Source of the DNA: Sistotremastrum niveocremeum HHB9708
Taxonomy: Eukaryota > Basidiomycota > Agaricomycetes > Sistotremastrales > Sistotremastraceae
Assembly: GCA_001630475.1 (NCBI GenBank)
Contig: KV419473.1
Location: 29,886 to 53,553, forward strand
Length of the DNA stretch: 23,668 nucleotides
Reading direction: 5' to 3'
Positions 1,444 to 20,484 of this stretch are shown here, piece after piece (positions within the stretch are counted from its first letter, which is position 1; each line of letters starts with the position of its first letter). The notes below the pieces were generated by a model, which worked only from the letters and a program-made list of their open reading frames with translations, was not told the DNA's origin and did not search any database. The position numbers were made by a program, and so were the translations under genes.

Positions 1444-1500
1444 AGCAGATTAGATGGAGGTAGATGAGGGATAGATGAGGAATCGAGAGTCGTTGTTCGT

Positions 1501-1610
1501 CCTTTTATACACCAGGGTACGTGAGCGATCGCATGCAGACATCACGGAGGAATCAATTGAGCGGGAGAGAACGGAAGTTATTATGAGAGAAGGCTTGGCA
1601 TTCGGAAGGA
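1501..1610 (-). promoter_or_regulatory. unit A promoter (upstream box + TATA)
   Basis: On the minus strand TATAAAAGG occupies 1509-1501. Starting 85 bp upstream is the box TCCTTCCGAATGCCAAG (1610-1594), shared with units B, C and D. Downstream the leader carries several CATCT repeats, then the first minus-strand ATG-rich open frame. The order box, TATA, CATCT leader is the same in all four units, which supports a real RNA polymerase II promoter. Confidence 0.6.
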
Positions 1611-2400
1611 GAGGTTCTTAGATTGTGTTGAAAGAACACAGCGAAGCTGGATGACACGTGCCTTTCCGACGATCGAGAGAAGGTTCGGGAGATGAGACAC
1701 CGAATTTGGGAACATCGTTATCAGATCGGGATTGAACGGAGGCGACGATTCTAATGATACCATCTCCGTCAAGAGGTACAGACCGGGAGAGCTCAGACTG
1801 TCATGATCGATCGAGGATACGGGAGACTCTCTGGGTAAGAGATCGAGATTTGAACCAGGAGAGTCCTTGCAAGTCGGATGTTCGATGACATGATTGAAAG
1901 GAAGCTTCCGCTCCGATCGACAGAAGCTGGACTGAGACAGCGCCTCATATGGAACCCGATCGCTCTCTTCGCTTCTCCCTCTGTGTCCCACTCCCCTTTA
2001 TCTCTTTTCATCGCCCTTCCATTCTTGGTCATATCTGTATTCGGGTTGGAATTTCTTCACTGGGCAGCGCATGAGAAGCGAGAGGCTCTGCCAGTGGCCC
2101 TCTGGGAGAGGGGATCGAAGGCGGAGGGATATCAGGTGCATTGCGAGCATTAAGATTGTGGGACTGATGCAGCAGTAGTCGTATGGCGATGAATGTGACT
2201 TTCTGAGGCCGCGTCATCCGCCTCCTCTTCGACGTAGAGCGAGAGCTGGGTTTTTGAATGATAGGGTGCCGAGGGAATTTTGCAAGACGCGAAGAGTTGG
2301 ATATTGTAGAATGAAATGCAGGGTAAGGGGGATATCACGTCCACTGGAAAGGCAGTGTGGAATCGAAGCTAACCTGGAATTGATTCGACGGAGTTTCTGT
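1611..2400. other. intergenic region, GATCG-rich
   Basis: This is the spacer between the unit A promoter and the downstream end of unit B. It holds several CGATCG/GATCGATC motifs (for example near 1805 and 1915). The overlapping open frames on both strands (1581-1991, 1878-2153, 2029-2344) have no recognisable domain. One of them runs through the unit A promoter box, so they look like chance frames. No gene is called. Confidence 0.25.
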
Positions 2401-2562
2401 TTTCATTCGCTAGCTGAGAGAATATATTAGATGCAGTCAGATAGAACAGACCTCTTGGCTATTCAAGCGATGAAGGTCGATCATCTCTTTTCCACTAAAG
2501 TAAACTCTGATGGGATCAGCATCGCAGCTTGATGCCTTGAGCAACGGGCTCCACGAGGGAAT

Positions 2563-3381
2563 TCATTCTGAAAATCTTAAATCTCTTCGAGACGTTGTCT
2601 TTAGTATGGCTATCCAGAAAGATGCCTGGGCAGAGAGAGAATGCCGCATGGGGCGATGTGTCCTGAGAAAAGTTTGAATGCAACGTGACGTAAGCCGATA
2701 GCATTTACCGAGGCCGCTTCTTCGCTGAAACCAACTTCATATACTCAACTCACGGCAGCAGACAGAATTTTTCACGCAGGTTTTTTCTACGACTATCCAA
2801 GACTACGATACAAGAATTTGCTAGGTCTTTGACGAACATAAAGCTTTTTCCTCCGTGGTACCGATCCCTGACAGACATTTTGGGTTTATATGCACCTTTC
2901 GTACTCTCGGCAACTACTCCGGAACATGACCTGCCAGTTCAAAACTAATGAACCTCGAACCATGTGATAATAATGACAGAGATACTCACAGGGCACGCAG
3001 CAGGAGCTCGATCCATGAACCTGATCACAGTGATGACGGAAAAGCGAGACTGAGATCATCTCGCAGGAGGGAGAAAATTATTATGACTCACCATTTCCAG
3101 ACCGTCCAAGAACTGAACCATATCATCCCTTTATAGATGAAGATATCTCGCCGCTGCGATATCGTGGTCTGCGGGAGTTGCGGAGAGTCAACGACGAGAA
3201 TATACAAGCAGAAAATATACTTACCATTGGTTTCGACGACTGTCGGCGGATGCACCTGAATATGACAAAGATGAGACGATCAATCTTTCTCATCAAAAAT
3301 AAAAGGGCAAACTGAGTGGGCTAGATCTTGAAACGATAACGAACTTACGTGTCGGTCAGCAAACAGTGCTACCAACAACTC
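2563..3381 (-). CDS. family unit B: six-exon gene of unknown function (5' end unresolved)
   Basis: The minus-strand exon model is 3381-3349, 3255-3225, 3112-3092, 3020-2990, 2930-2754 and 2662-2563. All introns are GT-AG (93, 112, 71, 59 and 91 nt). The joined frame is open for 131 codons including a TGA stop. The fifth exon holds the segment GKSFMFVKDLANSCIVVLDS, whose CIVVL-x2-RR core recurs in frame near 7.8 kb (NFCIVVLNNRR) and, more diverged, near 13.15 kb and 0.48 kb; that paralogy fixes the reading frame. The product is basic, with no recognisable domain, signal peptide or membrane span. Weak points: an in-frame TAA sits just upstream of the first exon shown, and intron 2 has a competing acceptor at 3169 in another frame. 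The start codon is unknown, and the copy may be decayed near its 5' end. Confidence 0.4.
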
Positions 3382-3831
3382 GCTTTCCAGTTACCCACGA
3401 CTCCGAGACGAAAAAGGAGGTGATAGACTGTTAAACTGGTGAGCAACGGGAGCTAGAGAAGACGCATGAACTTGCATTGTCACCGCCAACGGGATGCATC
3501 CATGAGCGACGAAATCAATGTTTGATGAGCGCGCGTCAGACCGACTCAGGTTCCCTTGTCATGAATGAATAAGAGTAACACCAACGTCAATGGTGAACTC
3601 ACTCTCACTCGCAGTCATCGTGCCCAGACACAGAGAGTTTCCATGCGCATGTATAGCTTGATTTGAGCGTATTGAATGTCACAGCGGCCAGAGGGTGATA
3701 TATGAGGAGGGCACGTGAAGAAGGGGGGCAAGAAAGAGCGGTGGAGATGTAAAGCAAGAAAGTGAAAGGTAGTTGTGACGGTCAGATAGATGGAGATGAG
3801 TGTAGATGGGGAAAAGTGACTATTTCGTTGT
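3382..3831 (-). other. unit B 5' transcribed region, exons unresolved
   Basis: This lies between the unit B TATA box and the first exon that could be phased. A minus-strand ATG at about 3653 opens a short frame that reaches a GTGAGT donor near 3598. The following sequence (about 3590-3385) contains several possible acceptors but no single open chain. It is probably 5' UTR plus one or two small exons. Confidence 0.3.
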
Positions 3832-3937
3832 CCTTTTATATTGGGCAGAAGGCCACAAATCAAATCTTATCGCATTGGCTGCAATGGGAGGGTGAAATCG
3901 GAAGTCATGTGAAGATTGTGCTTGGCAATCGGGAGGA
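3832..3937 (-). promoter_or_regulatory. unit B promoter (upstream box + TATA)
   Basis: TATAAAAGG is at 3840-3832 on the minus strand. The shared box, here TCCTCCCGATTGCCAAG, is at 3937-3921, about 81 bp upstream. A leader with repeated CATCT follows the TATA box, as in units A, C and D. Confidence 0.6.
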
Positions 3938-4408
3938 TAATTGAATAGAGGTTTCCGTCCGCCGGAGGATCCGGTAGGATAGGAGGGCTGTATACGACTT
4001 CGGTGTCGAGATTGTACGATCGACAGTTCTGGGAGCGGCGCGATCGCAATTGAAGAAGTCGATCGCAGCCACCGATCAGAACGGAAGTCTGAGAGCACAA
4101 GGGGACCACAACACGGGATGAGGGAAAGGAGATACCGGATTAGGAGAAGGATCTGCGCAACTGAGCCATCGAGGAACGATCCAATTCTGAGCTTCGGAAT
4201 GGATGATCGAAGATCGTGCTGATCATCTCTGTCGATTTTTCGAACCTCTCGATCGTCGGCATAGAAGGAAAGCCATCCGATCCTCTTAGGCGCTATATTC
4301 GATGGCGAGGCAGCAGATGACAGGCCGTCGAATAAGGCGAAGACCCTCCAAGTGACGCAGGAGAGTTTAAGATCACACAGAAGTTAACTGCGTTGCGTAG
4401 ATGTGAAG
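3938..4408. other. unit B upstream spacer
   Basis: GATCG/CGATC-rich spacer with no recognisable gene. The minus-strand frames at 3820-4098 and 3867-4109 run across the unit B box and TATA, so they are taken as chance open frames. Confidence 0.25.
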
Positions 4409-4880
4409 TCACAAATCGGATAAATAGGCCGATGAGAGTCCTAGTGAGCGGTGAGCACGAGAGATGAGACCGGGTATTTCAGGCATAGAATATTATGGTG
4501 GGCCGATTGAGGATTTAATCGAAACTCGCAAAACGCACGATTAATCACCTAATCACAAAAAATATATTATTTGCGAAAAATGCGAGTTTTCGAGACCTAA
4601 AAAAATGTGAGCCTTCAACTGAATGTTTATAGCATTCGGCAGAAATGTGTTCATATTTTTTACGCGAGAACGCAGCACCGCACGATCACTTGTGCGCCTG
4701 ATCGCCTGATCACTTGATCAAACATTTCAAACTCCGACCCTTCAGCATCCCACAGCACAGCTGTCGAAGCCGTGGTACGCGTCGACGTCTACCCCGATTG
4801 CGAGCCCCCAGTGCTCTTCAGAGGGATTAAGATTAGACAATTGCCATGGTGGAATTCAGTCCTGTTTATTCTAGAGCCGA

Positions 4881-5965
4881 CTCTGATCCATGCGAAAGCT
4901 ACCACTGGCATCCACAAATGGACCACAACTCATCAAGATACTAGTAATCGGAGAAGGCAAGATATGACGATCTCCATCCTGATTCCATACTATAGTACAT
5001 CTCATCGGCTACTGGTCTCGTCAAATAACACTGCTACCCAACATCAAGCCCGTGTCTCATGCTCGAAGCGTCGGCCTCCGAAAGCTTGTTATCAAACTCC
5101 ATATAATGATATCATAATCGCACTGATCGGAAAATCCAATTTCAACGTCATATTCTGCCTGGAGAATCCAGCAACATAGTCTTTGTTTTCTACTGCAACA
5201 AGGGCATCGATCATGGCCTCTGTGTGTTGCTTTCCACATCTCGTTAGTCTTGGAACTTGATACTGCCAGCGACTCATGCCGTATAACCACCCTCCTTTGA
5301 CTCAGACTCAGACAACCGGCACGAGTACTCCAAAAAACCCAATTCTAACTTCCCATATTGCTTGCCTTTGCTTGTACAGCGCCCACCCCTTCGTATTCGA
5401 CTGCACTGAGGGCTTGGGTCATGGGTTACTTACCTTGCTTTCCAGGCCCTGATGCTGATCGCGACTCATGTCCTATGGTACGACCAAGCTGCAGTCGCCA
5501 TTTCTGTTGATATTTGGAATACTGTGAGACCACCGAATACGACTGACTACGAGAGCGACGAAAGCGACGAAAGCGACGAAAGCGACTACGACTAAGTCTC
5601 TATGAGAGCGACTACAAGAGTGACTGCAACCCAGGCAATGTTGACAGCCCACTCAAGCGACCCCTAGGTGGAAGACCTTGACTGTATGAACAATGCTCTG
5701 ATCCATGCGAAGCCACCAGTCATCCACATTGGACGAACTGGCACCCAACGATCTCCATCTGGATGTCATACTAAGGTACGTCTAGCTGGCTAACAATCTC
5801 GTCAAATAGCACCACCCCCCAAGCTCAAGGCCACGTCACATGCTTGGAATTGTCAACCTCCCAAAGCTTGGTGTCAAAATCTATACGATCACACTGCTCT
5901 CAGTCGGAAACCTTTTCCTCCAAAAAATCAAATACAATCTCACGTCCTGCTTGACAGGCTTATCC
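4881..5965. repeat. diverged internal direct duplication inside the 2.8-kb element
   Basis: The segment starting CTCTGATCCATGCGAA at 4881 recurs at 5696, an offset of 815. Similarity continues through CTCGTCAAATA and the AAGCTT-containing stretch to about 5170 and 5965 respectively. A further related fragment with GCGCCCACCCCTTCGT occurs at about 5380 and 5985. Open frames at 4772-5179 and 5840-6226 fall in the two copies but use different frames, so they do not support a conserved protein. Confidence 0.5.
5555..5586. repeat. 9-bp minisatellite (GCGACGAAA)n
   Basis: Three exact tandem copies of GCGACGAAA plus a partial fourth, followed by related GCGACTAC units to about 5620. Confidence 0.8.
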
Positions 5966-6996
5966 GACATGGCCCTGGTCGATAGCGCCCACCCCTTCGT
6001 TTTTTACTGCACCGAGGCGTTTTTTTCTTGTCGCTTTCCCCGTCTCGTTGGTCTCGATGCTGGTACAACCTGGCTGCAATTGCTGCTAGTATATCTAACG
6101 ATTCCTTGCACAACAATAACGATAACGACGACTGCAACGACTGCAACAACGGCAGCAACTGCGACCATAACAACACAGAGAAAGTTGACCCGCCACCCCA
6201 ATGACCCTCAGGCTATCCAGGTCTGAATTCCTCATCATCCGGCTCTGGACTTGGAGTCCGTTTTGATGGACAATCCTGACTGCATCTAGAAAAGAACGAT
6301 GAGCCCTCGCTCATGCTACAACGGAATATCAAGCTGGAATGGACTGGACGATGACGTCATGACTCGAGACGAATGATGGAGATCCTAGAGGGTCATCGCA
6401 AAGCATGTCAAGAAAGCAAGCCATTCGTCACAGTGGGACTTTCTGACGAAGCCACTTACCCAGATGGACAGAAGATAGCATCCAAGAATCCAGGCCCGTC
6501 ATCCATTCACTACCATAGGCCCTCCACCACACAAACTGCCATCACTTGCGTGCTCGATCCGCTATAACACTCCAACAACCCCCTCTCTCATATTGCCAAC
6601 TCATCGCAGTGCTTACTTCCGAAGTAGATCGTCTCGACTCGTCCGTGCCTGGCTCTGCCTGCCTCAACCTGTTACTGCCGCTCAGCATCGTCCTGTCTCG
6701 CTCCCTGTACTAGGTCGTCTGCCATGATCGCTGTTCTCAAGACCCTGTGGCAGATTTTCACCTCAGAATCCTCTGCGAAGGCTCTCTCTTCGCTGTCCTC
6801 GAAAGTCATGTCTTATATCCATCTAGTTTTCTCGTCAAATTCCATCAATGTATAATGTATTAATGCATTATGTATGAATAAAATGAGACAACCTGATTCA
6901 TCAAATAGTATCATATAATAAAGAAGACACAGTGGGAACGTGTTTGGACTCTGGAGAGTGGAGAGCAGCGTGTACAGGACGAAGGTAGGTACGTAG

Positions 6997-7025
6997 GTCG
7001 GTCGGTCGGTCGGTCGGGTCGGTCA
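6997..7025. repeat. GGTC/CGGT tetranucleotide microsatellite
   Basis: Run of GGTC units with one interrupting G, inside the right half of the 2.8-kb element. The short minus-strand frames over it translate to TDRP-type repeats and are not genes. Confidence 0.8.
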
Positions 7026-7621
7026 GTCGTATAGACGGCATAGCCAACGTATTGACTCGCGTAATCGCACGATAGCATGAACGCATGAACGCGTGATCGC
7101 ACAATCACAAAACCGAAACTATTGAGATAGACTCGCATCGATTATTTTACTTCGTAGAAACATTTTGTAGACTAGCATTATTCTGGTACGCAACTTCGCA
7201 AAACGAGAATCTCGCATGAAAAAAGATGTGATCATGTGATCATGCGATCATACGACTCGGACCTCGGATTCCCTGCCAAAATGGCAAATTGTGCGACTTT
7301 TGATTAAATCCTCAATCCGCCCACCATAGAATATTGAGGAAAGCGATGACGAGCAGGACAAAGAATGACACAGAGAATGGTATCGAGATCGTGTGTACGT
7401 AGCTCATCTTGGTTTTCTGGTGGTACGAAATCATTGAAGAAAATTTCTTGCACCTGGATGACGCGGAGTGAAATGTCGTCTTGCCTGACATGGATGGGTC
7501 CTCTGACTTCACTCTTCTCTCGAATGATTCCTGTATATGCCTATAGCGCCGTAGAGAGTGTCATCGAGAACGAGGACAAGCCGTGGCGCAGAGCTCGAAT
7601 TCAGCGACGATGAGGCAGGAA

Positions 7622-7806
7622 GAAGATAGCGTGACGGAACGTAACGCGTTCCTCCTTTGCTTGCAATTCGGTGTTCCCTTCGAATATCTTCGAAGGCACA
7701 GAATATACATGATCAAGGACGTCGGACTGCGCTTGAAGACATTTTCCCACAATTTCAGCCGAAAAAGTCGTCGATTATTCAAAACTACGATACAAAAATT
7801 TCCCAC
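7622..7806 (-). other. family unit F conserved exon (CIVVL-x2-RR)
   Basis: The minus strand encodes GNFCIVVLNNRRLFRLKLW, aligning with the unit B exon (NSCIVVLDSRRKNLREKF) and with the unit D copy near 13.15 kb. About 155 bp further along, a degenerate form of the TGACGT palindrome (7646-7628) follows, as in units A, B and D. The frame upstream of the exon meets a TGA within 35 nt, so either an acceptor lies there or this copy is decayed. No promoter box or TATA was found at the expected distance (about 8.8 kb). Confidence 0.4.
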
Positions 7807-7809
7807 ATT

Positions 7810-8037
7810 ATGTATCCTATATCACTGACAACGCTCCTCTTCGACACTTCTCAACACCTATACATAGCTGCAGAATCCAGTCGCATCCGACACCTATCTG
7901 TCTCTGAATGGTCTCGCCTCCTACGTTCCAACAAGGCTCGACGCACGCATCTGGCCATCTTACCAAGTCGATCTCCGCCAGAACATACTGCTGTAAAAGC
8001 TATCCTTGATTCACTGAGTGGACTAGATGTATCGTGA
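7810..8037 (+). CDS. hypothetical 75-aa ORF
   Basis: ATG at 7810 to TGA at 8035-8037. It contains HLYIAAESSRIRHLSVSEWS and a Ser/Arg-rich middle. No domain is recognised. It lies opposite the expected 5' part of family unit F, so it may be a chance frame. A GTGAGC sequence overlaps the stop and could be a donor, making this an exon of a longer plus-strand gene. Low confidence. Confidence 0.2.
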   Translation: MYPISLTTLLFDTSQHLYIAAESSRIRHLSVSEWSRLLRSNKARRTHLAILPSRSPPEHTAVKAILDSLSGLDVS

Positions 8038-8172
8038 GCCGATGATGGCAGAAGTCCTGACGTATGAGCGTGGAAGAACATGAGACTGCCTGAGGTAAGA
8101 CCTAGGAACAATATTTAGCAAGCTCCGAGGGGCGAAAATTCAAAGACATACTCTTGTGAGAGCTTCGAGGTT

Positions 8173-8520
8173 TTGCAACGCTTCTTCACTACACACGAGT
8201 CAGTTCGGATATCGCGAAGGCGGAACAAGTCGAATTACCTCGACCAGACGAACTCTGGCGAAGATTGGATAGCCGTGTTGACTATCTGGATTCGTCGCGT
8301 CTCATTATATATCTCAAGCGAAGAATTTATGAAGGGGATTTGCGCTGAGGTCTGTGCCGACGGCGGAGATAGTGTTGCCGACCCGCCGACTTCGAACTCC
8401 GCAGGGCCAGTTCTTGAGACCCCGAGTTCGACCATCCATATCGAGAGAGTAATCATCCCACGATCAATATCTGTGCTCATTGACTATCCTCTACTTGGGG
8501 GTGCTATCGTCGACCATTGA
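8173..8520 (+). CDS. hypothetical ORF with 27-bp identity to unit C
   Basis: The frame is open for 115 codons to TGA 8518-8520. It begins at a TTG, so the true start (or upstream exon) is unknown. It includes the segment FMKGICAEV, encoded by a 27-bp stretch (8328-8354) that is exactly reverse-complementary to 10682-10708, where unit C on the minus strand also reads MKGICAEV. Conservation of one frame in two places supports coding, but everything else in the frame is unfamiliar and Ser/Thr/Pro-rich. An alternative frame (DELWRRLDSRVDYLD...) ends at a stop inside the shared stretch. Confidence 0.25.
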   Translation: MQRFFTTHESVRISRRRNKSNYLDQTNSGEDWIAVLTIWIRRVSLYISSEEFMKGICAEVCADGGDSVADPPTSNSAGPVLETPSSTIHIERVIIPRSISVLIDYPLLGGAIVDH

Positions 8521-9327
8521 TCATCATCTTGTTGCTATTACACACAGAGTCGTAAATCCTATTCCATCATCCCCACCAACCGTTTCAGTGGTCTACGAAA
8601 CTGTCTGCGATTGTCTCAAGACGTCCTCCGACTCCAAGTCGGTCTCGTGTTGCTCTTGAAAAAAATTCTTCAGCGACTCAGCGCTTCAAGTTGAGCACCG
8701 ACTGATTCTCATTCGTGTCTCTCGTATCAGCATCAAGACCGCAGAGCTGGTAAGTGGAGGTGATCCTCAACGTTGCAAGGGGCATGCTATCTCGTGGTGT
8801 GTTCTCAACTTCTCATTCGTCGAATCGTCGTTTTGTTCCTCATACTGACTCTCATGCTTACTCTTATCGGTTCATCGCGTCATCCAATGCTCTGTCCCGT
8901 CTCGGATGCCTTTATCTCTGCTCGTCTCAAGCGTCCCATACCCTTCGACCCCTCCCTTGTATCTACTAATAATCGTCAACCCTCGCTGATTGCACCTCAA
9001 GTGACGACTTTCGCCGCAATACCGCTTCGAATTCTGCAGCAAGCTTCATCCTCACGTGCCTCGAGTGCACTGTATCTATTCTAGGTGCCCCTCCTGCCCC
9101 ATAGGACCCGATCACTCAGAATTCACTGGTGCACGTTGACAGTAGATGGTACCTCACAATCACCCCGCTGTACATTGATTCACTTATTCAAGCCTATCTT
9201 TTTGGCATGGTAGCCTCCATGTTGTCAAACATTCCACACAATGTTCTCCTTCGTTCGGTCCATGCACGGCACCAACTATGTGCGTTCTCCTACTGTTCTC
9301 CTCCCACTGTCCTGCCGACAAGGGCCC
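8521..9327. other. unassigned region with weak plus-strand exon signals
   Basis: There is a GTAAGT donor candidate near 8751 and a pyrimidine-rich stretch before TTTCAG near 8585. The frame 8773-9084 starts at TTG and encodes a hydrophobic run (IVVLFLILTLMLTLIG) followed by a Ser/Pro-rich tail; it could be a small membrane protein exon but has no support beyond openness. On the minus strand, 9327-9184 is open and includes GEHCVECLTTWRLPC; the hAT-like element at 9336 interrupts the sequence just upstream of it. Confidence 0.2.
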
Positions 9328-9335
9328 GACATCAC

Positions 9336-10120
9336 TAGGGATGCCAAGGTTCAGTTCGGTTCGGTTCACAGCCTTTTTTCATGAACCCCGAACTGAACCT
9401 CGGTTCGGTTCGGCCAAAATCCCTGAACCTGAACCAGAACCGTGGTTCAGTTCACATGGGTTCAGTTCAGGTTCAAACCTGGTTCAAACCAGTTCTGAAC
9501 CAATAATATTTTTAAACATTTAAATATTAAATTCCAGGACCAGTATGACCTTTAGCATTGTCTATATGACCACAGAGGGCCTATGTGGGCCCATAAAGAA
9601 AGATTTTGGCTTGCAGAAGTCTCAAAATAACCAATCTGGGAAGTTGGAACATCAGGGCTCTATACTTGATACTCCCATGCATTACCTCTCACCAAAACAT
9701 ATCCTGTCTCTTCTATATATGCCACAAGGTATACTCTATAGAGATCAACAACACTGTTCCCTTTGATTGAACATCCTTTATCAAGACTCACAGGCTAATA
9801 TGATATTTTTCTGGCACCCTGGTAGCTAATAAAGTGTACAGGATTTGTGATATATCCCCATAGCTGTTGCCATCCTTGATAATTCATCAAAGAAACCCAT
9901 TTGAGAAGAGATTTGGCGTACTAGTTGACATATTATTTTGGGGGTGGTTCATGGTTCAGTTCAGTTCGAACTCGGTTCAGGTGCCCGGCCAAAGACCTGA
10001 ACCACGAACCGAACCACTTGGTCTCAGACCTGAACTGAACTCGAACTTGAACTGAACTCTGGTTCAGTTCAGTTCAAACCCGGTTCGGAACGGTTCTCGA
10101 ACCGAACCTTGGCATCACTA
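9336..10120 (+). mobile_element. hAT-like MITE, GGTTC family, copy 1 (785 bp)
   Basis: Ends TAGGGATGCCAAGGTTC and, inverted, TAGTGATGCCAAGGTTC. Flanked by the 8-bp target duplication GACATCAC (9328-9335, 10121-10128). TAG-GATG ends plus an 8-bp duplication are hAT hallmarks. About 150 bp at each end is an array of GGTTC/AGTTC pentamers (left) and their complements (right). The roughly 400-bp core has no conserved long frame and encodes no transposase, so it must be mobilised in trans. A second copy in opposite orientation lies at 19709-20484. Confidence 0.88.
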
Positions 10121-10149
10121 GACATCACCGGGTCAACACGTACCTGCGG

Positions 10150-11388
10150 GTAGAGTTCGAGTTGTGAAAGTTGAGGCAGCTAAGGCCAGTGTACTGGATC
10201 AGGAAGATCTTGTGGCAGCAGATGGTTTAGATGTTGACGTGAGGGTTGTCGCGGGAAGGGTGTACGGAGACCACGACAAGCTGTAGGTACGCCGGATTGG
10301 TTCTTCGTAATAAAACTTCTTTTCCAGCTGTTGATCATGTTTCCTGATGTTTGTGGATTGATTGAGTCATGTCTCGTCCTTCGACATTGAATCGACAATG
10401 CGTGGTGATGAGTTCACAACCATGTATTGAAGTGTACGTATACAGGCAACAATTGAATACACTGCTGTGATCGATAGATGTACCTTGAGATGTACATAGA
10501 ACTAGCGCTGATGGTGGAGGTCGCATAAGCCAATGTCGTCGCCCTGGGATGATCGCGAGATCACCAGCAAGTGACCGAAAATGGGAAAGAGAGCGGTGCC
10601 AGGGGTCAGTCATGAGCCAGGATGATCAAGGTTTGGAGCCGACGATGCCGGGAGCGCGGAGTATGAAGCGTGCCGAGATGCCAGACCTCAGCGCAAATCC
10701 CCTTCATAAGAATTAAACGAATTGCAATGAGTTCTGGGAGGTAGGGACCTTACCCACGAGTCAGACATACCCGGAGCTCTTTAGACGCATGCCGAATCTA
10801 CAGGTTCCACTACGGCAAGTAAGAATTGACGTGCTCGGGGTGGTATGATAAAAACGCTCACCGAAGCTCATGGAGGTCCGAGCAAAATGGCGTCGAAACT
10901 TAGCACTAGCACATGAGACAGGTTGGATTGGATCAAAGTTATCAAGACAATGAACTGACCGCGAAGCCCCTTCTCGGCGACCTATGTCGTAATAGAAGGT
11001 ATCGGCACTTCAAAAATTGTGAGAGTCTTGTTGATATATGGGATAGAGAGAGCACTGCTTACAGGCTCAACTATCAGCCGACACATTTGCTTGCGGAGTC
11101 GTGCCACAGGATCCCGAGCCCTGACGACATAAAAGCCCTAACTGTACGCGTCAGATCGAAAACGATGAACGTAATGTAAGAAACTTCTCACGTTGTCAAG
11201 AGCTGAAGGCAAGGAAGGTGGACGTGCGTCATTTGCGGAGGCGTGGAAAGACAGTGAAGTAGGTAGCGAGGATGCCATGAGATCTTGAAATGCTGGGCTA
11301 TGGGAGAGATTGGGTGAGACTCAGGAACGCGCGTCCGGCGAGGACCATAATCATCAAGAATAAGCAAGAAGGACCGCAGGATGTGCAC
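10150..11388 (-). other. family unit C: spliced minus-strand gene, unknown product
   Basis: Downstream of the TATA box at 11443-11451 a first open frame (11388-11188) ends at the GTGAGA donor near 11189. Other donors are GTGAGC near 10859, GTAAGG near 10752 and GTACAT near 10488, with acceptors near 10820 (GCCGTAG), 10702 (TATGAAG) and 10328 (CAACAG). The segment MKGICAEV at about 10704-10681 matches the plus-strand frame at 8.3 kb. The conserved CIVVL-type exon is not clearly visible at its expected place (about 10.44 kb). No domain recognised; the exon chain is unresolved. Confidence 0.3.
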
Positions 11389-11442
11389 AGGTAGATAAAG
11401 TAAGATAGGGAAAAGATGAGGGGAGCGGGTCGAGGTTCACCT

Positions 11443-11563
11443 CCTTTTATAGGCGTAGGAAGAGGAATGTTGAGATCAAGGGGAGCGGAAGAACATCCGA
11501 AGAAGACCGCGAGGATCGAATAGAGGAACGGAGCGGATCACAAGCTCTTGGCATTCGGGAGGA
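11443..11563 (-). promoter_or_regulatory. unit C promoter (upstream box + TATA)
   Basis: TATAAAAGG at 11451-11443, with the shared box TCCTCCCGAATGCCAAG at 11563-11547, 96 bp upstream. A leader with CATCT/TATCT repeats follows. Confidence 0.62.
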
Positions 11564-12065
11564 TGAGGATGAAGGATTCTCGTTCGACGTGCTTCGAGGA
11601 ACACGATCGACGTTGAATCCGATCGCACCGGATGTTTCAGTCAGAAGAAGACACCTTTCACGGGAGAATTCGAATCACTTCTGGCGCCCGATTGAGGAGA
11701 TTAGCATGATCGTGGATGATTGTTGAATCCGAGTCTCACGGAAATGCTTACAGAAACCACTGTCAAAGCCGGAAGTAAATAAGCGCCGATTACGCCATCG
11801 CTCGATCGAAACCTCGATCATCCTCGATCAATTGCCATTCCGAGAGAGCCTGATCGATATGATCGGTCGATCATTCTCCATTCTGGGAGAGCCTGATCGA
11901 ATTGATCGGCCGATGCGTTGCCTTTTCGAGTACTGATCGCTGATGATCTGCCAAAGAGTGGTGACAGAAAGTGATGTGATTGAAGCTCTGTTAGTAGTCC
12001 ATCATCCAATTGCCTTGATGGATAGCAAACAAGAACGAGAGCAATGAGATTATTCGAATTCAGAA
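11564..12065. other. GATCG-rich spacer upstream of unit C
   Basis: No gene recognised. The stretch is dense in GATCG/CGATC motifs and contains a 43-bp tandem duplication and, just beyond, a 16-bp palindrome (both listed separately). The density suggests binding sites or simple repeat expansion. Confidence 0.3.
11835..11920. repeat. 43-bp tandem duplication with GATCG motifs
   Basis: Two imperfect copies of a unit starting CCATTC, then GAGAGCCTGATCGA, then TGATCGG and CGAT, starting at 11835 and 11878. The second copy differs at a few positions. Confidence 0.7.
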
Positions 12066-12081
12066 CTGATCGATCGATCAG
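12066..12081. promoter_or_regulatory. 16-bp perfect palindrome CTGATCGATCGATCAG
   Basis: Exact self-complementary 16-mer in the GATCG-rich spacer between units C and D. No transcription factor assignment is possible from sequence alone. Confidence 0.4.
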
Positions 12082-12829
12082 AGTGGATGGATCAAGAACT
12101 TCAAGCCATTGCGACGTGGCGGCAATGGACGCAGCGAGGCAAAAATTGAAGGCTCATTCATGTTAAACGTTAAACCGTCTCCATGAGATCTCGAAGGGGG
12201 GTATGAGAGAACACGAGAGAGGTCGTGATGGCATAAATCAAGAGCGGTGGTGAAGAACCTCAGGCTAGTGAAAGAAATGTCAACGATGTTCGCCATAGCA
12301 TTGCGATCAGGCACTTACCTGCCCTCCTCTTATCATATCTCCGAATGGCGGGATGGCCGAGCAGACCGATTCACTTCACATCAGCGTGACTTTTAAGAAT
12401 CAGACTCGCATCCTCATTCTCGTCTTCTATTTCTCCTCCAGTTGAAAGACGTCTTCCTCGCATCGTGAAACCATGAATGAGCTTGAAGATGGACTGCCAC
12501 GTCATCAGATCGTTCCGAAGTCTAATACAAACAAGTCAGCAGCGAGCCATTTCTTGAACGATCTTTCTCACATTCATCAATATTCGGCCATCCATCTCGG
12601 CGTTTATGCCGAACGATATCGATAGATGCTACTGCCAGTGAAAGTGGCGCACCCGTGCGTAGAATGGGCTGGCTGGTAAGTCCCAAAATGCCGCTCTGAC
12701 CAGGAAGCTTGGGAATGTCAGAGATTTGAAGACCTTGAAATTTCAGAGAAGGACATCGTCCCAGGATGATAGATCGATCATTTGGAGCCCATTCGCCCGA
12801 GCACATCAGCAGGTCATCTGTATACTGGC
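12078..12829 (-). other. region downstream of unit D: open frames of unknown function
   Basis: The minus-strand frame from about 12829 to 12522 is open and reads CSGEWAPNDRSIILGRCPSL and onward; it has the look of a real exon but no known domain. Further down, 12314-12078 includes a segment (GLTF...RPLPPRR) that aligns with unit A near 0.7-0.8 kb (GLTDF...RPQPPRP). Both are preceded by a TTTTTGCC tract and a GCGTCCA acceptor-like context. This shared piece suggests the tail of unit D or a decayed extra unit. Confidence 0.3.
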
Positions 12830-12983
12830 AGAATAATTCGTAAGCGTTCGGGAAACGTCAAAGGACTGGCATACCTATAGATTCCGGGTGTGATCTTCAT
12901 ACTCATATAACAATATGGACTCGCGCTGGTTGATAAAGGTGCTTGAGGTGAGGCGCAAGTTGTGGTCGGGGGGGAATGATAGC

Positions 12984-12998
12984 GTGACGTAACGTCAC
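12984..12998. promoter_or_regulatory. CRE/ATF-like palindrome GTGACGTAACGTCAC
   Basis: A 7+1+7 perfect inverted repeat with two TGACGT half-sites. It has the same core as the palindrome at 325-343 and lies about 160 bp beyond the unit D conserved exon. Confidence 0.4.
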
Positions 12999-13882
12999 CT
13001 AAGTATTTCCTTCTCGTTCGACTGATTCAATTTTATTCCTTTCGATACGCGTGCTTGAGTCCATGAGAGATCATTTTGGTAGAATACCATTGAATGTTGC
13101 GACACTCGAAGGGTTTTTTCACGAACTGAAATTTCTCGGGAAACCAAGACAAAAACTACAAAAATAGACACAACCATGCAGCGGCCCTACACGGCTACTT
13201 CAACAAACCATATGAACCTTAAAGACCCACACCCACGCTCTCTGTGATACCAAATTAACAGAACTGCCGAGACATCCCGAATGCGTCATCGGAGGGGAAT
13301 TCGTCACCCATCTTTCTGGCAACGACATCGCAACCTCTCGCTTCACATGTAGTCGACTCGCTATGCAAACATCAGTCCTCAAAATTCAAGACAAAAAAAA
13401 TCACTAACCTCGACGGCGACTTCTCAGCGGAGATCAAACGTCAAAGCTCAACGATACATGGAAGAGAAATCGGTCTGTCTGAATTCGAGTCGTCGAATGG
13501 AGCGCAGGAGTATGTCGTGTGGAAGTTGAAAGATAGAGAGGACCGAGAACCAGTGAGCATTGTGAAGCCGAATAAAACCAGAGAAAAGGCTTACTCGGTC
13601 AATCATGCTTTGTGTTCTCCACGTGAACCTCCTGGGAGGCAAGTGATCTTGACAATCGGTGAGAACCGGACAAATCTAGAAAATGTCATACATGAACTTA
13701 CTGATTGAGGCGGAAAGCTGGGCCTGGAATGAGCTCTTGTGTCGCCAGATATCATCGGACCTCATTGGCACCTCGAAGAAAGAATCAATGGATTGTGAGG
13801 CTGTGAAGAAATTAAGCTTACACTTCAGGACCCACTTCAGCCAGCGCTATCAGTCTATCTTATGTGAAGGGGGTACTCGGAT
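12995..13882 (-). other. family unit D: spliced minus-strand gene, unknown product
   Basis: About 0.92 kb downstream of the unit D TATA box, the minus-strand frame 13177-12995 reads VSIFVVFVLVSREISVREKT, aligning with the CIVVL exon of units B and F. Upstream of it, GAGTCG and GAAGCGAG stretches near 13350 align at nucleotide level with the first phased exon of unit B and read CEARGCDVVARKMGDEF. A GTTAGT donor lies near 13409. The plus-strand frames 13517-13955 lie opposite and may be shadows. The chain is unresolved. Confidence 0.35.
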
Positions 13883-14072
13883 AGATCACGCGCTACAGTC
13901 GAGGGAGGGGATCCTGGAAGACGACCATACTACGACGGATCAAGAGAATAGATGAGGGATAGAGAACGGGGGGTAGTCAGCAGGTCAGGAAAAATCAGGC
14001 AGCAAGAAATAGATGAATGTGATAGATCGAATGAGATGGGGGAAAGATGGAGAAAGCGTCAGGAAACATCGT

Positions 14073-14203
14073 CCATTTATAGGCTCCAGAACTCGAGGAA
14101 TGACGCAGGGAGGATCCGGGCGATGTCTTCAGAGGAAGTCTTGACATCGGGAAGAAGTACGTCGAAGAATCCCGATTGAATGAAGAGGGAACATTCGGGA
14201 GGA
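14073..14203 (-). promoter_or_regulatory. unit D promoter (upstream box + TATA)
   Basis: TATAAATGG at 14081-14073, a one-base variant of the other units' TATA. The shared box, here TCCTCCCGAATGTTCC, is at 14203-14187, about 106 bp upstream. The leader is rich in CATCT, as in A-C. Confidence 0.58.
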
Positions 14204-14780
14204 TTGAGACGCCTGCAGCGCTTTCGAACGGCTTTGAATTGGTGGGGTGAGATCGGAAGGTTGGGAGTGGAATCCGATCGACTCGGACTGACAATCTACA
14301 TCGAAATTGAGCATTCGGATTCGGATTCCGATGGGCTCTCGATCATTCCCAGTTTCGGGAGAAGAACTGTCAGATGGTGGGCTCGTCAGGCGGGGACCGA
14401 GGATCGAGCTGTCGATCGGGCGATCCTCCCGTTGTCTCTGGTTCGCACAACGAGGCAACTGGTTCTGGAGCGGCGAGAGAGGATTAGGTAGGTATAGAAT
14501 CAGAGGCACGGAATGATCGGCGTCGCTGGCCAAAGGACAAGAGCGCAAATTCTCAGTAGAAGTCATACAAGAGTAGCCATATCCATTCAGAGAAAGTATC
14601 GAGCGTCCCTTGACGAAGTGTCTGATAGCCCATGCCACCACCGATCGTTTTTCGACACCCAGAACCCAGAAGAAAATTTCTTTAAGGGTGGCATGAGCGT
14701 CGAATTGTTTGCTGCATCAGGAAACGGCCCCCCGAAATTGAAGTTGCTACATATTGCTGTAGACTCGTTGATTAATACAT
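14204..14780. other. unit D upstream region
   Basis: No gene called. The 170-codon minus-strand frame 14641-14129 is the longest here, but it runs through the unit D promoter box and is low in recognisable features. A plus-strand frame (14180-14491) overlaps it. GATCG and CGGATTC repeats (about 14310-14330) occur. Confidence 0.25.
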
Positions 14781-16902: not shown

Positions 16903-19708
16903 ATCTGAAGCTTCTGTTCAAGACATATTTATGGCATTTGTCTATGGTAGATCCGCTACATTAATGTCTTAAAGGCCTCCCGTGATATATAGTCATTCAA
17001 GAAGAAGGTATCATATAGTTGGAATACATTCTGTGGCGTCAATTTCTTGTTGGCAACTCGGGCGCCCTTGAAATCAGGAACAACATGGACCGTTTGTCGG
17101 ATCTTTGTCAGTGGAATCACGCTGTATTCGTCCAGAAGTTTGATGCGATACATATTGACGTTTTGAGCAGCTGAATGTGGGAAGCGAGAGAACCATCGAA
17201 CAAATACAAGCATCTTCTGTTCGGATGCTTTCGAGAAGAAATGATAGTCGAGCTTAAAGAAAAATCGGACTCGAGCCACGCGGTAGCCTTTGGAAATCAA
17301 TGTGGAAACCTTCAGACAGGCACAGCTTGATAGGCTTCGAAGCGTACCTTTGACACCATTCAGATTTGCTGTTTTCTCGTTGACATTGACCAGCACGTTG
17401 TCAAAATGTTCAGGTTTGTTGCCTCGAGCGATATGACTGGTGACAGCAGGTTTTGCTTGTATACGCTCAGTAATACGCAATTTTTGCCCTCGAACAAGAG
17501 CCGGCAATGTAGCGTGAACTTGGTGCCAGACGTCGAAAAGATCTGTTGGTTGAAGCGACAGAGGATCTTCATATTTGGCATCAAGATATTCTTGAACTGC
17601 ACCGAGGAAATGGGCACCATCATCATAGATGTCAACGAGGCTTTTGGCGCTAATGGAGGGGTGTTGGGGCTCCTGGGAGAACGAGAATTCCGAAGCGATA
17701 CCGCTGACATTGAAGGATTTGTCAGCAAAGGAACCTAGTTGAAATCTCAAAGACTCACGAAAGACGAATGGCATCATCGTCCTCAGTCTCCGGTTTGACC
17801 TGCACAGCAGTGGTGGTCGCTTCATCTACCGTCTTGATTCTGGCATCCTTAAACTGGACTCCATCCACATCACTCTCAACTTCCGAGCATGCATCATCCG
17901 TGTCGTCGTCCTCTTCCGCATCCAGCCAATTTTTTTGTGCCCAGTTAATAAAATTACTCCAGAAATTAAGCGCTTCTTGGCGGTTCATCATGACTGTTTG
18001 TTGACAAAGGTGATCCTTTCAATTCGAGCGACGATACAGCACCTTGGCGAAGTCAATGTGAAGACGCTCCGACGTTTCGGTATTGTAGCCGTCCAGAGAT
18101 CCCCACCGTTTGACATGTTCGACGAAGTGTATGAGGGCATGGAATTTCGGGAAGTTGAAATGTTCGCGAACGCCGAGTTCGATGAAAACATCCTTGTTAT
18201 CGTGAAAGACGTCGAGGGAGCTCTGCATGAGTTCGAGAGTCTCCGTAGAATGCTGAGTGAATGAGGAATAATAGATGAAATCCAAGAGCGCCCGCGCGCA
18301 CACGACGAGTTCGGTTCTCTCTCCGCCGAGGACAGAGACTATTACTTTCTCCATTTCCTTGGATTCCCGGCCTGTCCATTGCGATACGGTTGAAATGCCC
18401 TTGGTGAAATGTCGAAGTGTTGAATGTTTGGGAATGCACTTGAAGCGCGCGTCAACTTCTTCATCTCCAAGGATCTCACATATCCATGGAACCAGGTGTG
18501 AATGGAAGATTCCTTTGTGAAGTTGATGGAGAAGATCGGGGGGGAATGCTTTATAGACATGGAAAACGGGGAGATCCCGCCAGAACGGATTTTTTATCGA
18601 TCGTATACCGAGACGGTCGAGTTCTGTGGTATCGGACAGAGGGTTTTGGATAAAGGCATCCAATATCTCAATGGAGCTCCGGGAACGAGGTTTGGATGGT
18701 GTTGGATCTTCGCGTTTCTTGGGATCCACCTCACATTCGGGACAGTGATTCTCTTTGCAGCAGGCAATGAGACATCTTTCGGGGTGGTCGACGGTGAAGA
18801 CGGCTACAAAAGGATAAATTCGGCGAGCCTTGTTATCAGAACAAGCCATCTCGACTCCGTTAGATTCAGGTCCAAGAGAATAAAGCGGCTCGCAGATTTG
18901 TCGCATGCATTCGTGATATAGCTCCCAACCACCAACTCGACGACCCTCCTGCGTAGCGAAGCATTCCAGCTTGGCGACTGGAAGATATCCAACAAGTCTC
19001 CAAGCGCGTTGAGACACCTTTCGTCGAGTCGATTTGTTGAGATTTCCGATAGTCATATAGACTGGCCACGCGACTTTGTCGCCGCTGAAGAGGGATAGAT
19101 TGGTCTTATCGGTGGCGAAGATGATTGGAACGACAGTCGAGCGCTGTGGGAGACGCATCTAATTATGGATGAAGTGAAAGTGATAAGCAATGAGTTGAAG
19201 TTCGGTGGATGCGAACGCACCTGGGTTTCCCACCACCAGTCCCCTGTCCACATCTCTGAGTAAAATCTCTGAGTCTTCGTCTCATCACTCCATAATCGAC
19301 ATGGTGCGAAATTCATGTCATCCTTCAGTGCAGGATCGCCGACGATGTCTTGAATGCACTCGAGAATGTTCCGGAAATAAAGCTCGACTGTTTCGACTTC
19401 GGGAACACCGTCGTCGGTCAAGCGATCTCCGTGAATTCTGATATCGGATGTTTTCCACTGCGGGCCTCTAGGAAGAGTGTCGATAGTCTTATTAAGACTA
19501 TGAGCAGATGAGAATGGAAACTTCATATCTTGAACCTTCTTTTCTATGAGTATTGAAAATCGATAAAAATCGAATAACTCACAGCAGGAAGCTTCAAGAA
19601 TGAATCAATCTTGTTTTGGCTTACTCCAGAGGTCACTAGCCACTTTGCCAAACCCCAATGCCCTTCAGACTCGAAGGGACTCCATATCTCTTTGTTTTCG
19701 GCCTCCAA

Positions 19709-20484
19709 TAGTGATGCCAAGGTTCGGTTCGAGAACCGTTCCGAACCGGGTTTGAACTGAACTGAACCAGAGTTCAGTTCAAGTTCGAGTTCAGTTCAGG
19801 TCTGGGACCAAGTGGTTCGGTTCGTGGTTCAGGTATTTGGCTGGGCACCTGAACCGAGTTCAAACTGAACTGAACCATGAACCCATCCCAAAATATAATG
19901 TCAAGTATTATGCAAATCTGTTACAAAAATGTATTTTCTGAGGAATTATCAAGAATAGTAACAGCTGTAGGGATATATTACAGATCCTGCACACTATATC
20001 AGCTACCAGGATGCCAGAAGAACATGATGTTAGCCCTGTGAGCCTTGATACAAGAGGTATAATCAAGGGAAACAATGTTGTCAAATTTTGTAGAGTGTAC
20101 CTTGTGGCATATATGAAGAGACAGAATATGTTTTGGTGAGAAGGAATGTATGGGAGCAGCAGGTACAGAGCCCTCATGCACCCAGATTGGCTATTTTGAA
20201 GCTTCTGCAAGGTGAAAATTCATTTTATGGGCTCACATAGGGCATCTGTGGTCATATAAACAATGCTAAAGGTCAGACAGGTCATGGAATTTAATATTTT
20301 AATATTAAAAATATTATTGGTTCAGAACTGGTTTGAACCAGGTTTGAACCTGAACTGAACCCTTGTGAACTGAACCACGGTTCTGGTTCAGGTTCAGGGA
20401 TTTTGGCTGAACCGAACCAAGGTTCAGTTCGGGGTTCATGAAAAAAGGCTGTGAACCGAACTGAACTGAACCTTGGCATCCCTA
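19709..20484 (-). mobile_element. hAT-like MITE, GGTTC family, copy 2 (776 bp)
   Basis: Opposite orientation to copy 1 at 9336-10120 and alignable with it throughout, including the core (for example GACCTTTAGCATTGT, ATGCCACAAGGTA and CTGGTAGCT). Ends TAGTGATGCC and, inverted, TAGGGATGCC. Target duplication GCCTCCAA at 19701-19708 and 20485-20492. Inserted in transposase exon 1 between codons for QRLEA and ENKEIW; removing the element and one duplication copy leaves the frame intact. Confidence 0.9.

Follow-up and report, generated by a model that had tools for sequence, protein, structure and literature searches.

Long non-coding RNAs (lncRNAs) of fungi are RNA polymerase II-type, spliced, longer than 200 nt and without coding signal; the examples in the available part of PMC8113380 are either classes of transcripts or individual loci that act on neighboring genes. 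Here we describe units predicted from sequence to share these properties in Sistotremastrum niveocremeum HHB9708. They are found in a window of 23,668 nt (the whole stretch of DNA analyzed, positions 29,886 to 53,553 of the 53,553-base contig C80) and elsewhere in the 34.7 Mb assembly of 111 contigs. In contrast to the fungal lncRNAs, they number about ninety, are mostly arranged in tandem, and have promoter and 3′ end in common. The sequence evidence makes it probable that these are arrays of spliced, apparently non-coding units in which the signals have been kept and the exon sequence has not.

Other described systems resemble the arrays in part. The meiotic lncRNA sme2 of fission yeast marks its own chromosomal locus (PMC6898681); the available part of that paper describes no tandem arrays, and the comparison is offered as an idea only. 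Spliced non-coding host genes of small nucleolar RNAs (snoRNAs) are a known kind of gene, according to the available parts of PMC7719101 and PMC2780460. They share with the present units splicing and poorly conserved non-coding exons, whereas the units searched here yielded no snoRNA and occur in many tandem copies. Transcribed satellite arrays, as far as the accessible sources describe them, are also tandem and lie in repeat-rich regions, but here a regulatory frame repeats and the bodies are unalignable. Fast-evolving clustered protein families likewise combine a tandem array and conserved promoters with a diverged transcribed part; the present units differ in having no coding signal. No arrays of this type appeared in the titles and abstract openings among the literature matches listed, a search that left most subscription papers and preprints outside its range.

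Promoter Module in the Window

A sequence-only reading of the window had proposed that four sites on one strand share a promoter module, and both pattern counts and an independent profile confirmed this, with every match on the minus strand. Allowing up to three mismatches, the box CCTCCCGAATGCCAAG matched three times (0.18 expected; none of 100 shuffles reached three), and TATAAAWGG matched four times (0.31 expected; none of 100 shuffles reached four). A nucleotide profile built from 19 promoters, none from the window, recovered four promoters, with expectation values (E) of 1.7e-26 for unit A, 1.6e-21 for unit B, 1e-11 for unit D, and 1.8e-10 for unit C. The next-best match in the window had an E of 0.77.

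The promoter of unit A (1445–1612, minus strand) carries its box at 1594–1609, its TATA at 1501–1509, and a CATCT leader at approximately 1449–1481. On the same strand follow the promoters of unit B (3779–3940; box 3921–3936, TATA 3832–3840), unit C (11392–11564; box 11547–11562, TATA 11443–11451), and unit D (14022–14156; box approximately 14140–14156, TATA 14073–14081). The gaps between box and TATA are 84, 80, and 95 bp in units A, B, and C, respectively, in keeping with the proposed spacing of 80–106 bp. Unit D departs from it: no box lies within three mismatches, and the profile places a variant box, CTTCCCGATGTCAAG, about 58 bp from the TATA. Its box had been expected near 14,203; the stretch at 14192–14205 scores only E 5.7, and the box lies near 14,150 instead.

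Distribution in the Genome

With one mismatch, the degenerate box occurred at 23 places in the genome, compared to five for a backwards control. A pattern of box, TATA, and CATCT with limited spacing gave 98 genome rows and two control matches, and a pattern of TATA, CATCT, and ATCT gave 83 rows and one control match. Overlapping rows of both patterns were merged within 60 nt, which gave 97 distinct places (three control matches); loci repeating the window or contig C54 were not counted as extra units. The module is not scattered at random through the genome: 85 of the 97 places lie, mostly in tandem, on twelve contigs (C9, C27, C33, C37, C42, C45, C54, C68, C74, C80, C83, and C96), and the remaining 12 lie singly on eleven others. 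Contigs C33, C37, and C96 have one place each, 77–79% like a C54 promoter, while C9 holds 30 places between 217 and 327 kb, on one strand throughout, and two further ones elsewhere.

Seven units known by the profile or from the window escaped the patterns and bring the total to 104 places. Subtracting the 12 scattered places and the two lone ones on C9 leaves 90 likely members. On C54, the profile scores 18 promoters at E 5e-9 or better, and the patterns recovered 14 of these. A profile prepared without C9 sequence and applied to 25 kb of C9 gave E values below 1e-6 for 11 of the 14 matches listed, all on the same strand. Two isolated pattern matches, G000:C23:172486 and G000:C46:174866, have identical letters and probably represent a dispersed repeat unrelated to the arrays.

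Anatomy of the Units

Thirty-five units were cut out and analyzed, and 26 were used in the main coding and intron tests. The nine excluded ones had no 3′ end set (C54_56054, C54_68192, C54_114962, WIN_11451, C9_11068, C9_21117, L004, L021, and L023); C9_11068 has a weak 3′ match. Unit C54_173954 is outside the 35-unit set, and the end of C54_126326 was guessed. Shuffled controls were first-order Markov samples or plain shuffles.

Upstream of the promoter, TCGATC occurs 56 times in 18 spacers, compared to 7.4 expected from the rest of C54; the transcribed parts contain 10, with 7.3 expected. Within the promoter, the box is accompanied by a pyrimidine-rich extension and the TATA, and CATCT repeats lie roughly between +28 and +60. 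A word search in the exons brought out only pyrimidine-rich words and TTTCTTG. In the C54 and C9 arrays we also observed a sense T-over-A skew of 0.19 in the transcribed parts and 0.01 in the spacers.

GT-AG intron signals favor the sense strand, with 67 in sense and 11 in antisense across the 26 units; a stricter rule applied to 29 units gave 24 in sense, one in antisense, and 5.6 in Markov shuffles. The donors are not evenly placed, as 11 of the 67 fall between +240 and +266, compared to 2.2 expected there. The candidate introns have a median length of 56 nt and range from 45 to 79 nt under a rule allowing 42–79 nt.

A 3′ element closes many units. Its model, which includes 16 of the matched units as seeds, yielded 32 matches with an E no higher than 1, every one on the unit strand, and 28 of these lie 0.55–1.44 kb after a TATA, usually 0.55–1.1 kb. 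A 21-letter pattern derived from the same units matched 18 places in the genome and one in the control. Twelve of the places follow a known TATA of the same strand by 0.6–1.5 kb; three (C68, C74, and C96) have the strand of nearby units, with no promoter found at that distance; and the last three are on C5, on C15, and distant on C33. The C5 match, G000:C5:422885 (minus strand), carries the pattern with one mismatch on a contig without arrays.

On C54, a CRE-like element resembling GCGTTACGTCACGTCACGC follows units eight times. In seven cases the next TATA, one of them in a weak promoter, is 0.79–1.18 kb further on, and the eighth has no following unit. The element matched once in 42 kb of C54 outside the arrays and never after units in 25 kb of C9. 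A second type of gene was sought in the interval from the CRE-like element to the promoter that follows, which showed nine sense introns compared to five in antisense and little shared body.

Tests for Coding Sequence and RNA Structure

The sequence-only reading had described a tandem array whose promoters are alike and whose proteins have diverged. The array and the contrast between promoters and transcribed parts hold, whereas units in the form of protein genes found no support and diverged proteins are not detectable. Spliced stop-to-stop frames in the 26 units averaged 88.2 amino acids (aa), compared to 87.4 aa in shuffled sequence (p = 0.73) and 90.8 aa in the reverse complement. When introns could be chosen freely in 29 units, the mean best frame was 98.8 aa in sense, 83.3 aa in antisense, and 77.5 aa in shuffles. 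The period-3 signal of the 26 spliced units had a median of 0.93 and a maximum of 2.94; the medians were 5.12 in 16 pieces from long open frames of C54 and the window and 1.29 in 11 non-unit stretches of C54. Lengths of exon 2, read by eye, vary modulo 3 across units. A protein family was rejected as an explanation, with spliced and unspliced frames, the free-intron search, first-ATG peptides, and periodicity all lacking a coding signal. The units apparently constitute no detectable protein family, and their expression is a prediction from sequence.

Searches at the RNA level were also negative. In 239 unspliced windows of 24 units, the mean structure z score was 0.04 in sense and −0.02 in antisense. 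Rfam at gathering scores gave no match in 63,668 bases (the window and four C54 loci; C9 was outside this search) and, at E up to 1, none in three further loci. Pairs of C/D boxes in the 26 units numbered one in sense, one in antisense, and 1.8 in shuffles. Within 229,536 letters, the bodies of 23 units contained 27 14-mers that occur elsewhere in sense (13.1 in shuffled bodies) and 20 in antisense (13.6). Genome searches with unit sequence, in which only the best candidates were scored, matched nothing except family members.

Divergence between Units

Local alignments among 20 units fall mostly on the promoter with its leader and on the 3′ element. The strongest exception joins two C54 units in an alignment located past their 3′ elements, which probably reflects a repeat common to both. 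Similarity to other units stops at +52 to +59 for the C33, C37, C96, and C74 units and at +91 to +110 for window units A and B and the C42 unit. The exceptions to this early loss are one 31-nt piece and the units of C27 and C42, which are collinear paralogues.

In this pair, differences amount to 14.7% in the upstream spacer (85/578), 19.2% in the promoter (30/156), 38.1% in the body (313/821), and 27.5% in the downstream spacer (174/632). The sequence preceding these parts, assumed to belong to the body of the unit before, is unalignable at 54% (391/720). Introns differ by 35, 19, 29, and 22% and exons by 33, 43, 47, 53, and 43%, with borders a few bases off. Once the borders were corrected and splice signals excluded, 74 of 99 positions were identical in intron interiors and 158 of 257 in exons 2–4 (Fisher p = 0.019). 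Relative to shuffled sequence, the alignment scores reach z values of 5.8 for exon 2, 3.2 for exon 3, and 0.9 for exon 4; identity is 70% in exon 1 and 72% in exon 5. The comparison of exons with introns is made on this single pair of paralogues.

From about −700 to −100 before the TATA of L001 (C27) and L002 (C42), the spacer is approximately 85% identical, and no long shared reading frame was seen there. It may represent another non-coding gene or else a block with a regulatory role.

Units and Other Features of the Window

All units of the window are on the minus strand. The presumed transcribed part of unit A, with inferred ends, covers 436–1480, with candidate introns at 1172–1245, 1063–1141, 1013–1060, 722–789, and 608–667 and a weak 3′ element at 436–491; a CRE-like palindromic element of repeat family D7, with similar elements in the C54 array, follows at 324–344. 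Unit B presumably covers 2792–3811 (ends inferred), with its best candidate intron at 3169–3224 and a 3′ element at 2792–2819, to which a model built from units outside the window gives an E of 4.4e-4. The sequence-only reading had placed a promoter-less unit near 7.8 kb, which is supported by a 3′ element at 7752–7802 (E 4.3e-4) followed by a D7 CRE-like element at 7628–7648; the promoter of this fifth unit was not found. Unit C is taken to cover 10500–11422, with candidate introns at 11142–11191 and 10906–10959; no 3′ element was found, and its lower end at 10500 is a guess from the usual unit length. Unit D presumably covers 13105–14052, with candidate introns at 13632–13701 and 13361–13408, a weak 3′ element at 13105–13161, and a D7 CRE-like element at 12981–13001. 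A perfect inverted repeat of 28 nt has one arm at 8327–8354, near the promoter-less unit, and the other at 10682–10709, inside unit C.

Two transposons proposed between the units proved to be as described. A DNA transposon insertion at 4495–7327 and a short inserted element at 9336–10120 both lie outside the units and have terminal inverted repeats and 8-bp target duplications (AGAATATT and GACATCAC, respectively). The shorter element is presumably hAT-like. Among the 25 longest of 59 inverted pairs, terminal repeats occurred only at these two elements; the unit ends were not specifically searched. Farther along the window, a Plavaka transposase (PF18759; E 9e-79 and 3e-30) is encoded at 18022–19604 (minus strand), a finding that points to a basidiomycete. 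Beside it, at 19709–20484, is an element with ends like those of the 9336–10120 element and an 8-bp target duplication, GCCTCCAA.

Discussion

The family, its architecture, and the missing coding signal are direct observations. A typical unit has a TCGATC-rich upstream region, a box of 16–17 nt with its pyrimidine-rich extension, a TATA, and a CATCT initiator and leader; TTTCTTG often lies near +80, introns measure about 56 nt, and a 3′ element follows downstream. The ninety or so mostly tandem units, assigned to RNA polymerase II from sequence alone, would be transcribed and spliced, and a single regulator could recognize the box; we infer that the units of an array are co-regulated. Selection would then act on the act of transcription, splicing, and termination and not on the RNA sequence. 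As the most likely function we tentatively propose, at less than even chance, one in cis within transposon-rich regions, exerted either by transcribing the locus or by spliced transcripts that enter RNA silencing. A silencing or chromatin role in cis would fit the transposon-rich surroundings, and the genome has Argonaute-like genes (13 Argonaute (Piwi) matches at five places). A bolder reading, based on one pair of paralogues, is that exons are driven to differ, so as to give each array an RNA identity of its own, perhaps as a locus-specific tag by which chromosomes or nuclei are recognized or as a diversified repertoire of small RNAs; its probability we put quite low.

Several alternatives were considered. 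The exons could themselves be the product, as spliced non-coding or small RNAs selected for sequence diversity, acting, for instance, as guides that target transposons or foreign nucleic acid, or as locus tags; we judge this unlikely. Between the C27 and C42 units, exons 2–4 differ at 126 of 263 positions (48%) and introns at 53 of 200 (26%; Fisher p = 3e-6, borders slightly off), an excess that persists after border correction. The spacers also differ less than the exons, and insertions and deletions are about equally frequent per base in the upstream spacer (8 events in 578) and the body (13 in 821). Argonaute-like genes and the excess of shared 14-mers over shuffles in both orientations point the same way. 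Nevertheless, the case rests on a single pair, in which exons 2 and 3 align better than shuffled sequence and the conservation of exons 1 and 5 is close to that of the introns. Unit sequence led, among the best candidates scored, only to family members, and neutral exons beside constrained splice or regulatory sites would appear similar. Alternatively, formerly protein-coding pseudogenes could have left remnants of promoters, introns, and 3′ ends. Such a relic family would account for 26 units without coding signal and for transposon insertions in the array, but dead copies should lose all parts alike, whereas here promoter, splice signals, and 3′ element remain recognizable although the bodies cannot be aligned. 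Because these signals persist together, the relic explanation is weakened; furthermore, none of the 35 units read was an intact coding member, with most of the family unread, and we regard a relic family as a low-probability reading.

It is still more doubtful that the units encode short, fast-evolving peptides or frames missed by the intron rule. Some single frames do span 115–224 codons, and the C27 and C42 exons differ in length by multiples of three, as discussed below; elsewhere, exon 2 does not respect the modulus, first-ATG frames are mostly short, and the 26 units show no period-3 signal (maximum 2.94). The gain in frame length with freely chosen introns appears on the sense strand, but that strand offers more introns. 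The longest run open in both C27 and C42 is 45 codons compared to 36 in the antisense control (introns slightly misplaced). Finally, snoRNA host genes, with the snoRNA encoded in intron or exon, could show introns more conserved than exons, as in our one pair. The absence of Rfam matches and of any excess of C/D-box pairs (H/ACA was checked only via Rfam), together with introns that are short, though the rule permits none longer, makes this highly improbable.

A number of observations weigh against arrays of spliced non-coding units with conserved signals. Introns were called by our own rule of 42–79 nt and not by a trained gene finder, and 3 of the 35 units have none by that rule. TTTCTTG, at +72 to +85 in 17 of the 35 units, is not universal. 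Several units lack a recognizable 3′ element, the elements of units A (E 0.17) and D (E 0.48) in the window are weak, and 4 of the 32 matches have no known TATA within 1.5 kb. The length differences of exons 1–4 between C27 and C42 (0, 0, 3, and 42 nt) are all multiples of three. The coding controls were long open frames assumed to be coding; four of them, one being the Plavaka frame and the others coming from C54, were compared with Pfam, where the Plavaka frame alone matched, and peptides below about 50 codons are beyond the reach of the coding tests. Moreover, (TTAGGG)3, sought as a marker of proximity to telomeres, was absent from the assembly (eight matches in the backwards control).

In genome annotation, such arrays could pass as empty or receive spurious proteins. 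If the units are expressed as predicted, they would make it possible to test directly whether selection can act on transcription and splicing independently of RNA sequence, or whether the function resides in the diversity of the exons. S. niveocremeum would then possess a large non-coding family whose regulatory and splicing frame is inherited while its RNA content is free, or driven, to change.

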